Positions 5,083 to 13,469 of a stretch of 62,860 bases of DNA are shown piece by piece (positions within the stretch are counted from its first letter, which is position 1; every line of letters begins with the position of its first letter). Source of the stretch: a virus. The stretch is from positions 1-62,860 of IMG/VR virus record IMGVR_UViG_3300023108_000024. One strand, given 5' to 3'. The notes under the pieces are model-generated. The model worked only from the letters and a program-made list of their open reading frames with translations, was not told the origin of the DNA and did no database searches. The translations under genes and the position numbers were made by a program.

Positions 5083-5159
5083 GATTCCGTAGCTCAACTG
5101 GATAGAGCAACTGACTTCTAATCAGTAGGTTGAGGGTTCGAGTCCTTCCGGAATCACCA
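5083..5159 (+). tRNA. tRNA-Arg (anticodon UCU)
   Basis: 77-nt cloverleaf: acceptor GATTCCG/CGGAATC, D arm GCTC...GAGC, anticodon stem ACTGA/TCAGT with loop CTTCTAA (anticodon TCT, 5117-5119), T arm GAGGG-TTCGAGT-CCTTC, discriminator A and an encoded CCA (5157-5159). It reads AGA/AGG, the dominant arginine codons in the structural genes of this window but rare in gp32 and several early genes. Confidence 0.95.
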
Positions 5160-7676: not shown

Positions 7677-7825
7677 GTGATACTCGGCAACTAGAAATGA
7701 AATTGCATGAGCAGGCTGATCAGATTGGTTACCTGCGTCATGAAGTAGCTAAGCTAAAGCAACAGCTTGAAAAGAGTGATGCTATTCTTAAGAATCTCTG
7801 TGAAAGGTTATATGTGCAGGGATGA
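7673..7825 (+). CDS. Coiled-coil small protein (50 aa)
   Basis: Begins MSDTRQLEMKLHEQADQIGY and continues with a heptad pattern (LRHEVAKLKQQLEKSDAILK), so a short parallel coiled coil is likely. It overlaps the upstream stop (ATG 7673 inside AAATGA) and the next start (ATGA). It resembles small multimerising adaptors, but function is unknown. Confidence 0.6.
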   Translation: MSDTRQLEMKLHEQADQIGYLRHEVAKLKQQLEKSDAILKNLCERLYVQG

Positions 7826-8130
7826 CCGGAATTTTTTATGATACAAAGGAAATGGAAATGATTTTACAAGAACAAGAGGACGGTACTATGACATATGATC
7901 GTAGCTGGATGATTCAGGAATTGCATAAGCGGGTCTGTCGTGTAATCTTTACTAAGGTTAATGGTGAAACGCGGGATATGCAATGCACTCTAATGGAATC
8001 AGCATTAACCACTGCTGGTGATAAACATGATCCTAAACGCCAGCGCAATGAAGATACAATTGCTGTTTGGGATACTCTAAAATGTGAATGGCGTTCATTC
8101 CGTGTAGATCGCGTAATTTCATTTACATAA
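7822..8130 (+). CDS. WYL_2 / DUF2693-like SH3-barrel protein
   Basis: 102 aa. The blocks CRVIFTKVNGETRDMQCTL and IAVWDTLKCEWRSFRVDRV fit the small Sm/SH3-like barrel family WYL_2 (formerly DUF2693), common in T4-like phages. The barrel resembles ligand- or nucleic-acid-binding WYL domains; a regulatory role is possible but unproven. Start overlap ATGA couples it to the coiled-coil gene. Confidence 0.65.
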   Translation: MTGIFYDTKEMEMILQEQEDGTMTYDRSWMIQELHKRVCRVIFTKVNGETRDMQCTLMESALTTAGDKHDPKRQRNEDTIAVWDTLKCEWRSFRVDRVISFT

Positions 8131-8138
8131 ATATAATC

Positions 8139-8327
8139 ATGTTTGATATAATTTGGATACTTTTCGCTGCGGCTTCTTTCTGTTCCTTTATGATCGGTAG
8201 ATCATGGAGTAATAGATTTCCGCCCGAATTCATCATTGAGAATACTATAGAGTATTTAATCGCCGAAGGCTATATACATGCCGAACGAACCGAAGATGGC
8301 GAATGGGAAATAAGTAAAGTAGATTAA
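8139..8327 (+). CDS. Small membrane-anchored protein (62 aa)
   Basis: ATG 8139 begins MFDIIWILFAAASFCSFMIG, one N-terminal transmembrane helix, followed by a cytoplasmic or periplasmic tail containing EYLIAEGYIHAERTEDGEWE. No clear ribosome-binding site is visible, so translation may depend on coupling to the upstream gene 8 bases away. The stop overlaps the halogenase start by 1 base (TAATG). Confidence 0.55.
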   Translation: MFDIIWILFAAASFCSFMIGRSWSNRFPPEFIIENTIEYLIAEGYIHAERTEDGEWEISKVD

Positions 8328-9493
8328 TGAAAAAACTTGCAATTGTCGGTAAAGGCACCATTGGCTGCCTTGCCATTAATTATTTTTTACAACGTACTGA
8401 TTGGCATATTGATTGGATATTTGATAGTAGTATTCCTACTACATCAGTTGGCGAAGGAACTACATTAGCAGTTGCAAAACTTTTACAAACATTTGATTGG
8501 ACCAATAATGCTATGTCGGAATTTAATGCGGTTCCTAAATTAGGCATTTATAAAAAAAATTGGACTGAGGAAACGTTTTCACACTCTTTTCCTTTTGGTG
8601 AATTTGGTATCCACATGTCCGCAGTTGATCTCCAAAATAAGATATATGATTTTGTAAAAACCTCACCACGCATTAATATTATTAACATGTATGTAGAGAA
8701 TCCAAATGATCTTGACGCTGATCATGTAATGATTTGTTCTGGCTCTCCTAAAGATTATAGTGATTATACACCACTTGATCATGTATCGGTTGACAGTTGT
8801 TTTGTGACACAGTGTTATTGGGATCGCCCAGAATTTATGGAAACATTAACTATAGCCCGGCCCTATGGTTGGGTGTTTGGCATCCCCATACAGAATAGAT
8901 GTTCTATTGGTTATCTTTATAATTCTAATTATACTTCTCTGTCAAATATAAAGAAGGATGTACAAAGTGTATTTGAAGATTTTGGTTTGACACCAAGTGA
9001 TACTACAAATCATATACAATTTAAAAGTTATTATAAAAATAATAATTTTTCAAATAAAGTTGTATATAACGGCAATGCATCATTTTTTGTAGAACCATTA
9101 GAAGCAACAACGTCAGCTTCAGCCATTAAGATAATGAATACAGCATTAAATTTATGGCACGGTGTGTTTCCATCCGAGTTTGCACAGAACCTATATGAAA
9201 ATGAAATTAATGCCGTTGAGTCAATCATATGCATGCATTATATGTCAGGCTCTACATTTAAAAACGATTTCTGGAATGACGCAAAAAAACGTTCCACACA
9301 AAAATTACAAAAAGATTTTAAAGAAGGATCTGAGTTTAGTAACATAGTCAAATTGGTTACCAAAGAAAATATAGATCATATGGAGATGATGAACATTGAA
9401 CTTGGTACATGGGAAGCCCAAAGTTATAAATTTAACATTGAAAGACTTGGTATCAAAGACACTTTAATTGAAATGGCTAAAAATAATTCGTGA
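8327..9493 (+). CDS. Flavin-dependent tryptophan-halogenase family protein
   Basis: 388 aa, shorter than bacterial tryptophan halogenases (about 510-540). The FAD motif is GKGTIG (residues 8-13). SVGEGTT matches the family's conserved post-GxGxxG block. K71 in PKLGI aligns, from memory, with the catalytic Lys79 of PrnA (FKxGI). The signature WxWxIP appears as WVFGIP (182-187), with the second Trp replaced by Phe. FVEPLEATTSAS matches the second FAD-contact block. It could halogenate a small molecule or a residue using FADH2, O2 and halide. A cyanophage member (VirX1) is reported active, so activity is plausible. Arginine codons are mixed. Confidence 0.8.
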   Translation: MKKLAIVGKGTIGCLAINYFLQRTDWHIDWIFDSSIPTTSVGEGTTLAVAKLLQTFDWTNNAMSEFNAVPKLGIYKKNWTEETFSHSFPFGEFGIHMSAVDLQNKIYDFVKTSPRINIINMYVENPNDLDADHVMICSGSPKDYSDYTPLDHVSVDSCFVTQCYWDRPEFMETLTIARPYGWVFGIPIQNRCSIGYLYNSNYTSLSNIKKDVQSVFEDFGLTPSDTTNHIQFKSYYKNNNFSNKVVYNGNASFFVEPLEATTSASAIKIMNTALNLWHGVFPSEFAQNLYENEINAVESIICMHYMSGSTFKNDFWNDAKKRSTQKLQKDFKEGSEFSNIVKLVTKENIDHMEMMNIELGTWEAQSYKFNIERLGIKDTLIEMAKNNS

Positions 9494-9541: not shown

Positions 9542-10078
9542 ATGGTCAAACCTTTAAAGAAGAAAAGAGTTCTCACACCAAAGCAAAAAGAAGAGTTGAC
9601 ACTTCGTTTGGAAAAAGCACGGGCAGCTAAGGGCCCCGCTAAGAATGTCAGCGTACATGAATCCATTAGAGATCTGACTGATGATCATCCATTATCACCT
9701 AAGAAGGTTCGTAAATGGATTAAGGATCAGCAATTGAAACTTCGGGCCATGAAGGCGTTGAAGAATTCTAATGACCGTAAGGAAAAAGCTGCATATCATG
9801 TTGAAGAAGGTTATCTACATAATATGCAGGCCTATATTAGAACTGGTATCTGGCTTGATAATAGAGCAGGCGCTGATAGAGAACAAAAAGTAAAATTACG
9901 TTGTACACATTTAGCTTATGATAAGAATGGCAATGTAAAAAGAACATTAGGCGTCTACTATCCTGATTTAGGAGGTGAGTGGACTTTAGAAATGGAATTA
10001 GGAAATAATGCAGGAAGAAAGATTTCTAACAAAGGCAAGGTTCACAAAGCTCGTAGAAAGAATCGTAAAAGAGCATAA
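9542..10078 (+). CDS. Highly basic phage protein (178 aa)
   Basis: Strongly basic at both ends (MVKPLKKKRVLTPKQKEEL at the start, RKISNKGKVHKARRKNRKRA at the end). In between is a helical segment (SPKKVRKWIKDQQLKLR) and a small beta domain (KNGNVKRTLGVYYPDLGG). Charge and position just before gp33 and gp32 suggest nucleic-acid binding, but no named family is recognised. Its last 71 bases overlap gp33 in another frame, so the basic tail and the gp33 N-terminus are encoded by the same DNA. Confidence 0.75.
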   Translation: MVKPLKKKRVLTPKQKEELTLRLEKARAAKGPAKNVSVHESIRDLTDDHPLSPKKVRKWIKDQQLKLRAMKALKNSNDRKEKAAYHVEEGYLHNMQAYIRTGIWLDNRAGADREQKVKLRCTHLAYDKNGNVKRTLGVYYPDLGGEWTLEMELGNNAGRKISNKGKVHKARRKNRKRA

Positions 10079-10238
10079 GTCATCTTACATGGATGCAATC
10101 ATACATGTTTGTGATGATGTTGATTTAGATCTAGAGGATGTTAGAAAATACATAGCCCCAGCCATAAAAGACAAACTTGAAGCTGAGGCTATGAATTTAA
10201 ATTTTTTACCAAAAGGCAACACTTTGCCGATTGACTAA
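10008..10238 (+). CDS. 33: Late promoter transcription accessory protein gp33
   Basis: 76 aa. The core SYMDAIIHVCDDVDLDLEDV, then KLEAEAMNLNFLPKG, matches marine T4-like gp33. In T4, gp33 (112 aa) bridges the RNA polymerase beta-flap and the gp45 sliding clamp and works with sigma gp55 on TATAAATA promoters. T4 gp33 also lies close to gene 32. The start at 10008 has AGGAAATA upstream and lies inside the basic-protein gene. Its stop overlaps the -35 of the gp32 promoter. It provides the expected partner for the late promoters described here. Confidence 0.75.
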   Translation: MQEERFLTKARFTKLVERIVKEHKSSYMDAIIHVCDDVDLDLEDVRKYIAPAIKDKLEAEAMNLNFLPKGNTLPID

Positions 10239-10315: not shown

Positions 10316-11245
10316 ATGAGTTTTGCAGCACTAAAACGTAACCGCACAGACCTTTCGGCTTTAGTAGAAGCAGCAGGTAATGCAGGTCCAGAAGAACAGA
10401 AGAAGCATAATGTTACTGATGATCGTTTCTGGCAACCAACTCGAGATAAGGCTGGTAATGGTTATGCTGTAATTCGTTTCCTTCCTGGAGACGCAGAAGC
10501 ACCTACTCCTTGGGTGCGTTACTGGGACCATTTCTTTAAGGGCCCAACAGGTCAATGGTATGTAGAGAAATCTCTTACATCTATTGGTCAAGCCGATCCA
10601 TTAGCAGAGATGAACTCTAAGCTTTGGAACCAAGATGGTTCAGAAGAAGCAAAGCGGACAGTTCGTGAACGTAAACGTAACCTACGTTATGTTGCTAATG
10701 TGTTGATTATCTCAGATCCATCTGCACCAGAGAATGAGGGTAAAGTAATGCTCTATCGCTTTGGTAAAAAGATCTTTGATAAGATTATGGATACAATGCA
10801 ACCTCAGTTCCCTGACGAGAAACCTATCAATCCATTTGATATGTGGGAAGGGGCTGACTTTACATTGAAGATTCGTAAGGTAGAAGGTTATCCGAATTAT
10901 GATACATCCGCCTTTAAGTCTGCATCAGCCATTCCTGGTAGTGATGAAGAACTAGAAGCAATCTATAATCAACAACATGATCTATCAGAGTGGACAGATC
11001 CTAAGAACTATAAGACATATGATGAATTGCAATCTCGTCTGGCTGTGGTATTAGGTGAGTCTTCTACTCCAATGACAGCAAAGGTCATGGAGAGCCTAGA
11101 CGATATTGATTCTATTCCGGGCTTTGATTCTCGTCCAGCTCCTACAGCAGCTACAGCACCCGAACCAACTATTCGTACGGCTGAGTCTTCTATGGAAGAG
11201 GATGATACAATGAGTTATTTCGCTAAGCTGGCAGCGGAAGACTAA
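10316..11245 (+). CDS. 32: Single-stranded DNA-binding protein gp32
   Basis: 309 aa, near T4 gp32 (301). The N-terminal LKRNRTDLSA parallels the T4 KRKST cooperativity motif. The core APENEGKVMLYRFGKKI is almost the T4 sequence. The C-terminal tail is acidic (MEEDDTMSYF), as needed for contacts with replication partners. It coats ssDNA during replication, recombination and repair. The T4 zinc ligands are not kept: the His in YWDHFF remains, but the positions of Cys77, Cys87 and Cys90 read EKSLTSIGQADPLAE. Arginine is almost wholly CGN, unlike the structural genes. The gene has its own strong promoter. Confidence 0.95.
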   Translation: MSFAALKRNRTDLSALVEAAGNAGPEEQKKHNVTDDRFWQPTRDKAGNGYAVIRFLPGDAEAPTPWVRYWDHFFKGPTGQWYVEKSLTSIGQADPLAEMNSKLWNQDGSEEAKRTVRERKRNLRYVANVLIISDPSAPENEGKVMLYRFGKKIFDKIMDTMQPQFPDEKPINPFDMWEGADFTLKIRKVEGYPNYDTSAFKSASAIPGSDEELEAIYNQQHDLSEWTDPKNYKTYDELQSRLAVVLGESSTPMTAKVMESLDDIDSIPGFDSRPAPTAATAPEPTIRTAESSMEEDDTMSYFAKLAAED

Positions 11246-11645: not shown

Positions 11646-13469
11646 TTAATTATTAACTGTAAGATCGTTTGTTACGGTCGTAACGTTTTGAGGTGGAAGT
11701 GGGGGTATATCACTGCCTCCACCTGATGCAGAACCATTTACAGTATTGGTATCTCCACCATTAAAGATATAGGTATCACCGGATTGAGTAATTGTTCCAC
11801 CTTCTATGAGTCTTGAAACAATATCATTTACGGCTCCGCGTTCTGCATAGGCTTGAGTACCTATTCTGGTTTTTCCACTACCACTACCTCTAAAGAATCT
11901 ACTGCGAATACCGAAGAGGCCGCGGCCTGCCATTTTTTCTAGTCTTCTGGCACTTAGATTTTCAATAGGTAAGAATCCATCATTTGGATCTTCATTTGCC
12001 ACAACATTATAATCCATTATTTGTTTATAGCTATCCCATGTAGTATAATCATCAGGATCAAATCCAGGAGCCTTTTCTGGGAATCTAAAGAAATGTTTTT
12101 CTTGAGCCCATGTCTTTAATTCTTCTGTGGACATTTTCATTAGTAATTCACAATAGACACCCCATTCGCCTTGAGGCATACCTTGGCCACCAGTGGTTTT
12201 TATCCAATCCTTCATACCTTTTTGAATTGCTAATAATACTGCTATAGCACCTTTACCTCTATCAGCAGCAACTTTTTCCATATCAAAAGCAGCTTGAATC
12301 ATAGGTGCATCAATAGAACCATCAGCTAAAGAGCTTGGAGCTATCATCATTTGTAGTGCGGCACCAGGCACTGACCCTGCAATTTTAAATGCAGCTGATA
12401 TTGTCTTGCCAGGTATTGATACCCCACTCACAAGAGTTCTACCAATCATATTGTTGAGAGGGTTGTATTTTCCCTTTGTGATCGTTTGGGCTTTAGCTAA
12501 TACATTTGCGGCTGTTTCTGCTGCAGCTTCAACTGGATTAAGAGCAGCCACAAAAGCTGTTGCCCCTACTCTGTTCCTTATCATCATACCATAATTTTTA
12601 TATCTATTTCCTCTACCTCTTTCATCATTCATAGCGGTGAATCTACGGTTTGGATCAATAGACTTGGTAGGATCTGCTACTAGTGGCTTAGCGGTAGTTG
12701 TATCTATTTTAACCGCGGATTTAGATGTGTCGGGAGAGGCTAACGCCTGTGCTTCTTTTCTAACAACCATTGCATCGGCACCACCTGTAAGTCTAGTAAC
12801 TTTACCATTCTTTACACTGTAATTTTTTCCAGTAGCATCCCTAAAGGTATTTGTACCAACATTTTTTTGGAGATCTAATTTTTTCCCCTGATAATCAACT
12901 GTTACTTTTGGAATTGGTTTTGGTAAAGTTGGTGTTACTTTTGTAACCGGCGATGGTGGTTTAAGTGTAGGTGTAACCTTTGATACCTTAGGTGTTGTGT
13001 AAGGAACCTTGGTATTTTTTTTAATCTCTGAATTCTGAGATTGAATATCATTTAATCTTTGATTAATTTTGGCAATACTTAAGGTAATGTTTTGATCTAA
13101 TGGATTCAATACAGTTTCTACAGCTTCTTTGACCTCTGTCTTTTGTCTTGAATCCAATTTATCTACAAAAGCTTTTATTGCTGCAGCACCTGCTGCTAGG
13201 CCCAAAGCACCTTGAGCCAAAGCACCCATTGAGGGTCTGCTGGTTTCACCCGAAGATTTGTCTACTCTAGAACTTGCCTTCTGCGCCTGAAGTTTTTTAT
13301 TCTGAGCCTCTAGTTGATCAAACTTATTTCTGTCTTGACTTTTTAAAAAGGCCGTAAAGTTTTTATTGAGTCCCTCAACACCATCACCGACACGATTAAT
13401 GCCCTCAAGAGTATCGGCATTAAGTTTCTTTTGCTCTTCGAGCTTCTGGGCTAGGTTTGTTAAACTCAT
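11646..13469 (-). CDS. Tail tape-measure-like virion protein
   Basis: 607 aa, close to T4 gp29 (590 aa), with no clear sequence motif of its own. The first 75 residues are coiled coil (LAQKLEEQKKLNADTLEGI). Hydrophobic Ala/Gly segments follow at about 80-105 (ALAQGALGLAAGAAAIKAFV) and again near 310-340. A Pro/Lys/Thr-rich linker (about 165-200) and a Gly/Ser/Pro C-terminus complete it. Coiled coil plus hydrophobic segments, position directly after a chaperone-type frameshift pair, and length matching a T4-sized tail support a tape-measure or central hub role. It could instead be another internal baseplate protein. Confidence 0.55.
   Translation of the reverse strand: MSLTNLAQKLEEQKKLNADTLEGINRVGDGVEGLNKNFTAFLKSQDRNKFDQLEAQNKKLQAQKASSRVDKSSGETSRPSMGALAQGALGLAAGAAAIKAFVDKLDSRQKTEVKEAVETVLNPLDQNITLSIAKINQRLNDIQSQNSEIKKNTKVPYTTPKVSKVTPTLKPPSPVTKVTPTLPKPIPKVTVDYQGKKLDLQKNVGTNTFRDATGKNYSVKNGKVTRLTGGADAMVVRKEAQALASPDTSKSAVKIDTTTAKPLVADPTKSIDPNRRFTAMNDERGRGNRYKNYGMMIRNRVGATAFVAALNPVEAAAETAANVLAKAQTITKGKYNPLNNMIGRTLVSGVSIPGKTISAAFKIAGSVPGAALQMMIAPSSLADGSIDAPMIQAAFDMEKVAADRGKGAIAVLLAIQKGMKDWIKTTGGQGMPQGEWGVYCELLMKMSTEELKTWAQEKHFFRFPEKAPGFDPDDYTTWDSYKQIMDYNVVANEDPNDGFLPIENLSARRLEKMAGRGLFGIRSRFFRGSGSGKTRIGTQAYAERGAVNDIVSRLIEGGTITQSGDTYIFNGGDTNTVNGSASGGGSDIPPLPPQNVTTVTNDLTVNN

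Follow-up and report, generated by a model that had tools for sequence, protein, structure and literature searches.

P0001, a gene of a T4-like myovirus, may well encode an active halogenase of the two-component, FADH2-dependent kind that belongs to a compact phage clade, a reading based on sequence and predicted fold to which we give a probability of about 0.55. The protein is a member of the flavin-dependent tryptophan-halogenase family, far above chance, and its short length and WxFxIP motif mark one phage-dominated clade rather than being peculiar to this gene. Hydroxylation is the main rival to halogenation, and the altered motif alone is indecisive. The window, i.e. the whole stretch of DNA that was analysed, is the IMG/VR virus record IMGVR_UViG_3300023108_000024 (62,860 bases), and its PHROG matches (gp32, gp33, DNA end protector, head closure, tail tube, baseplate hub and wedge) identify the T4-like myovirus. 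When the first 25 kb were compared with named phages at the nucleotide level, only tRNA matches were returned and therefore the window phage has no named close relative. The tRNA-Arg(tct) gene at 5083-5159 is the only tRNA gene found in the window. A 607-aa ORF without Pfam or PHROG match (11646-13469, minus strand) heads the minus-strand structural block. Previously, P0001 had been labelled an auxiliary gene, which fits the phage context. The gene and its relevant parts are:

8327..9493, plus strand, compact flavin-dependent-halogenase-family gene P0001 (Pfam, PHROG, AlphaFold2 model, PDB fold matches)
8348..8365, plus strand, GKGTIG, residues 8-13, dinucleotide/FAD-binding GxGxxG (sequence)
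8537..8539, plus strand, Lys71 codon, aligned with the catalytic Lys (HMMER to RebH, hhalign to long phage FDHs, MAFFT)
8588..8593, plus strand, approximate point (residues 88/89) at which a 62-residue segment (VirX1 96-157) is missing (multiple alignment)
8870..8887, plus strand, WVFGIP, residues 182-187, WxFxIP variant of WxWxIP (alignment)
9086..9109, plus strand, FVEPLEAT, residues 254-261, halide/tunnel motif including Glu259 (RebH alignment, column statistics)

The ORF is uninterrupted from its ATG start and encodes 388 aa, and the protein occurs at 100% identity on five contigs of other metagenome assemblies. The sequence-only reading had recognised a halogenase homologue with an intact FAD loop, and this was borne out by matches to Pfam PF04820 (Trp_halogenase; E 2.6e-29, 102.8 bits, curated cut-off 21) and to PHROG 2928 'tryptophan halogenase' (E 5.1e-64), although these names are inherited annotation. 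The loop reads G8-K-G10-T-I-G13; Gly8 and Gly10 are present in 68/68 compact sequences and Gly13 in 67/68. In profile searches of the PDB, RebH was matched at E about 1e-30, and a 53-sequence compact profile retrieved 30 tryptophan-halogenase-type chains at E <= 1e-16, the next family being PltM with E 0.013. An AlphaFold2 model of P0001, built from the alignment of the 53 compact sequences, reached a mean pLDDT of 92.8 and a pTM of 0.90, residues 251-260 being the block of lowest confidence. This structure prediction, which had been proposed earlier, yielded the FDH fold: all 50 PDB fold matches listed are flavin-dependent halogenases, VirX1 included (E 8e-21 to 5e-18). The TM-scores to PDB halogenases are moderate (0.65-0.78 by query), as is to be expected because large segments differ. 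Thus, tryptophan halogenases come first in both fold and profile searches, in line with halogenation. P0001 matched no NCBIfam model at a threshold of 0.01, the QhpG and LodB models included, and QhpG was absent from the PDB matches of the compact profile when searched to E 10. Kinship of the compact proteins with LodB or QhpG found no support in these NCBIfam and PDB profile searches. Clustering with non-halogenating flavin monooxygenases, the outcome named beforehand as speaking against a halogenase, was not seen; sequence, fold and tree all place P0001 with the halogenases.

As had been suggested, the catalytic-Lys region is kept, since Lys71 (context NAVPK71LGIYKKNW) aligns with the RebH and VirX1 lysine by HMMER, hhalign and MAFFT. 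In RebH, it pairs in the HMMER alignment with the lysine of NASYKVAIKFINW, chain residue 99, and in VirX1 with that of NATYKNSIRFTNF, which is K75 in ORF numbering. From a count on the alignment, we take RebH residue 99 to be the native K79. The catalytic glutamate is kept as well, Glu259 being aligned with a RebH residue that, by the same count, is presumably native E357. Lys71 is invariant in 68/68 distinct compact sequences, which are down to about 21% identical to P0001; at residue 259, 65 of them have Glu and 3 have Gln. Halogenase-type chemistry would be the best explanation for the conservation of both residues over so large a divergence. However, the lysine is not unique to EPLE-type halogenases because an equivalent is also present in 7/8 outgroup proteins. 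It appears very improbable that the FAD protein P0001 is degenerate or without catalytic activity and is retained for some other purpose; such a protein would account for the altered motifs and for the lowest model confidence at 251-260, but the ORF is intact in the window and on the five contigs, and the Lys, Glu, Trp and Gly residues are strongly conserved over large divergence.

For a halogenase, we infer the following course of reaction. FADH2 from a host flavin reductase would bind to the GxGxxG fold and react with O2 to C4a-hydroperoxyflavin. A halide near EPLE259-A-T261 would then be oxidised to hypohalous acid, which would be passed to Lys71, and Lys71 together with Glu259 would steer the electrophilic attack by which an electron-rich aromatic group is halogenated. 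One point against this reading is that the scan of window genes revealed no flavin reductase.

The claim that WVFGIP stands in place of WxWxIP is correct, W182-V-F184-G-I-P being aligned with WVWNIP of VirX1 and with the bacterial WxWxIP. Trp182 is invariant (68/68). At position 184, 67 of the 68 compact sequences have Phe and one, from Campylobacter phage CP21, has Trp, whereas long phage and bacterial FDHs have W or Y there. A sequencing error or a gene-specific change behind the W->F exchange was ruled out because the five other contigs agree and the exchange is clade-wide. A pattern within NGN..FxE served to find the loci on viral contigs, so that conservation in this stretch is partly selected; the pattern took in neither position 184 nor Lys71. 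Phe at 184 was found in 150/152 loci from two scans, the second of which was biased (RPYGWVF was one of its two patterns), and in an unselected tblastn set of named phages all compact members examined except CP21 have Phe. FxxPxxSxG has been proposed as the motif of all active FDHs. P0001 departs from it as well, with F254, P257, A260 and T262 (S->A, G->T) in FVEPLEATT, while FxEPLEATS is found in some full-length phage and bacterial proteins.

Both departures weigh against halogenation and bring in hydroxylation, which we consider possible, if somewhat unlikely. Here, P0001 would be a flavin monooxygenase in which Phe at the second Trp position and a more open site let the substrate, perhaps a protein-bound aromatic residue as for QhpG, come directly to the C4a-hydroperoxyflavin and be hydroxylated. 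One proposed role of WxWxIP is to screen the flavin so that hydroxylation does not occur, although the function of its residues has also been called unclear (PMC10696468); the clade is without the second Trp in 67/68 sequences, and the tunnel motif differs at its Ser and Gly. Moreover, QhpG (7CTQ) is an FDH-like-fold enzyme that hydroxylates peptidyl tryptophan, and 2OG-Fe(II) oxygenase genes are frequent near clade members (see below). However, Trp181 and Trp183 are listed in the channel of QhpG (PMC7876137) and thus the loss of Trp is not what makes a hydroxylase. Conversely, some halogenases, Bmp5 among them, have a variant of WxWxIP (review, PMC8407142). Because of the Bmp5-type variants and the QhpG pair, the two Trp residues are neither sufficient nor clearly necessary for halogenation. 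Further points against hydroxylation are the invariant halogenase lysine (68/68) and the compact profile, which matches tryptophan halogenases and not QhpG or LodB/GoxB-type maturases. The earlier suggestion of an oxidase owing to the changed motif is a conceivable one, but the motif is weak evidence for it.

In one viral collection, 471 compact relatives were found; the S-RIM4 protein as sole query gave no match on viral contigs, while an alignment query succeeded. The phylogeny with VirX1 and bacterial halogenases that had been proposed was computed from 59 proteins (compact, long phage and bacterial halogenases, CP21 and a DPxxSxG-type outgroup) and sets the compact clade apart, nearest to the halogenases. 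One side of a branch with 100/100 support holds 29 compact proteins, and the other VirX1, 9 other long phage proteins and 11 bacterial halogenases, all with Trp at the second motif position bar one Tyr. The compact clade is thus sister to the VirX1/bacterial WxWxIP group, which, like the activity of VirX1, argues for halogenation, and the DPxxSxG-type FDH-like proteins fall outside. CP21 falls with the WxW side on a long branch with weak support. Phe at position 184 is probably the derived state, judged from the outgroup, which mostly carries WxW. Furthermore, long WxWxIP-type copies and a compact WxFxIP copy occur together within the single genomes of P-TIM40 (L015/L108) and S-SSM7 (L014/L109), and therefore the compact form is not necessarily a replacement for the long one.

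Six compact matches lie in bacterial or archaeal records (L101-L106), and a bacterial origin of the compact forms was considered and set aside for L106 and L104. The Nonlabens xiamenensis record (L106, NZ_RMVE01000006.1) holds P-TIM40-like cyanophage sequence with a compact protein, with long copies elsewhere in the genome, and is probably contaminated; L104 looks viral. By contrast, L102 looks cellular: its compact WxFxIP gene (L102:3929-5095) lies on a Poribacteria MAG contig with otherwise bacterial genes (transporter, Ste24-like peptidase, flagellin), and it is a possible cellular member of the clade. A phytanoyl-CoA-dioxygenase-like gene is located near it.

P0001 is shorter than tryptophan halogenases, as had been stated (388 aa versus 497-554 aa for those in the PDB and 530 aa for VirX1), but its oddities, taken at that time as belonging to this gene, are clade-wide. 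An alignment with VirX1 and long phage and bacterial FDHs shows that, besides the 62-residue segment, VirX1 residues 192-209 (18 aa) and most of 475-530 are missing, the latter giving a shorter C terminus. Tryptophan-binding motifs have been placed at PrnA 101-105, PyrH 160-163 and PrnA 443-461, and loss of the Trp4 motif has been tied to loss of tryptophan activity (PMC8269204). By sequence alignment rather than 3D comparison, the Trp2 and Trp3 segments coincide with or adjoin the 62-residue gap, and of the C-terminal Trp4 region only a shortened, degenerate GTWEAQSYKFNIERLG is left. As the 62-residue loss and the C-terminal shortening would take away much of the free-tryptophan-binding module of PrnA/RebH-type enzymes, we expect a more open active site and, probably, a substrate other than free tryptophan. 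It is accordingly improbable that P0001 is a conventional tryptophan halogenase, a metabolic gene product acting on free tryptophan or indole, in which all these differences are neutral. The relatives' automatic annotation as 'tryptophan halogenase', a C-terminal profile that aligns to RebH through the Trp4 region, and an antibiotic-protection role once suggested for cyanophage prnA (PMC2984593) would agree with it, but the state of the three Trp motifs speaks against it, as do the age and distinctness of the clade (100/100 branch) and the presence of long and compact copies together in some phages.

The following genes were identified in the neighbourhood of P0001:

3466-4188, DUF6065 / PHROG 7084 protein
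7822..8130, plus strand, WYL_2 (Sm-like barrel) protein, upstream (Pfam PF10902, 2e-15)
8139..8327, plus strand, small ORF of 62 aa from the ATG at 8139, directly upstream (sequence)
10008..10238, plus strand, gp33-type late promoter transcriptional regulator (PHROG 254, 5.1e-23)
10316..11245, plus strand, gp32-type single-strand DNA-binding protein (PHROG 224, 3.1e-105; Pfam gp32, 3.5e-43)

The stop codon of the 62-aa ORF, which has no Pfam match, overlaps the ATG of the halogenase gene (TAATG, 8325-8329), which suggests that both are translationally coupled. Relatives of the DUF6065 protein are also encoded close to compact halogenase-like genes in L026, L046 and L048. A conserved neighbourhood of the window gene was not supported, as only the gp33/gp32 proximity and the DUF6065 gene recur, in few loci.

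For the relatives, compact loci were grouped at 80% identity into 62 clusters and their surroundings compared. Within 2.5 kb, a 2OG-Fe(II) oxygenase gene is present in 19/62 clusters, such genes being common in these phages, and a Nol-like carbamoyltransferase gene in 7/62; the latter adjoins the compact gene in L049, L063, L084 and L096. In 10/62 clusters, a tail fibre gene followed by a tail-fibre-assembly (Phage_tail_APC) gene lies directly upstream of the compact gene (L059, L061, L062, L064, L076, L085, L088, L092, L097, L098, L210, L231, L235), with joints of 0-4 bp in the loci measured, except for 39 bp in L076. With mutual identities below 80%, these ten clusters make up a single clade (100/99 support); its only other member, L248, has 119 bp of upstream sequence, too little to reveal the arrangement. 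The fibre linkage is one inherited arrangement and not ten independent ones. The compact WxFxIP enzymes could thus be a distinct class of phage enzymes for the halogenation or hydroxylation of phage proteins, tail fibres being the best candidate, an idea that we regard as a long shot. This lead rests on the relatives and not on the window copy, which is without the fibre arrangement and lies beside gp33/gp32 instead.

Tryptophan-halogenase-like genes in cyanophages have long been known. Short members of T4-GC 212 (1104-1167 bases) were already tabulated in 2010 (PMC3037559). No description of the compact WxFxIP clade or assay of a member was found in the literature searched, which lay mostly outside subscription journals. 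The compact group offers a natural test of the need for WxWxIP in halogenation and of the minimal size of a flavin halogenase, and might be a source of small biocatalysts whose active sites are open. Moreover, cyanophages with both forms allow a natural comparison of long and compact enzymes.

Among known systems, VirX1 from Cyanophage Syn10 (PDB 6QGM) is the only phage halogenase with published activity that was found, and it shares with P0001 the phage origin, the Pfam/PHROG family, the fold and the aligned Lys and Glu. It iodinates, brominates and chlorinates (review, PMC8407142), so that the earlier statement that a related cyanophage enzyme halogenates holds for the activity. The relatedness is not close: VirX1 is 24% identical to P0001 over 235 aa, lies on the opposite side of the 100/100 branch and has WVWNIP and FIEPLESTG instead of WVFGIP and FVEPLEATT. 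PrnA, RebH and PyrH (PF04820) have in common with P0001 the GxGxxG motif, the equivalents of Lys79/Glu357 (RebH), the first motif Trp and the overall fold. However, P0001 is without some 62 residues that would follow residue 88, an 18-residue stretch and the long C terminus (as measured on VirX1), its second Trp is Phe, and the Trp-binding motifs are absent or degenerate. QhpG resembles P0001 in its FDH-like fold and similar size (NCBIfam model of 423 positions), but is unmatched by the compact profile and keeps its Trp pair in the channel. The CP21 halogenase-like protein is likewise phage-encoded and short (399 aa); unlike P0001, it keeps WCWTIP and VGL and falls outside the compact clade. 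This clade includes, besides P0001, proteins of S-SSM5, S-SSM7 and S-ShM2 (the short T4-GC 212 members) and the S-RIM4 hypothetical protein. These compact cyanophage proteins are 21-41% identical to P0001 and their genome neighbourhoods differ, but they match it in size and in the WxFxIP, NGN and EPLE/Q motifs.
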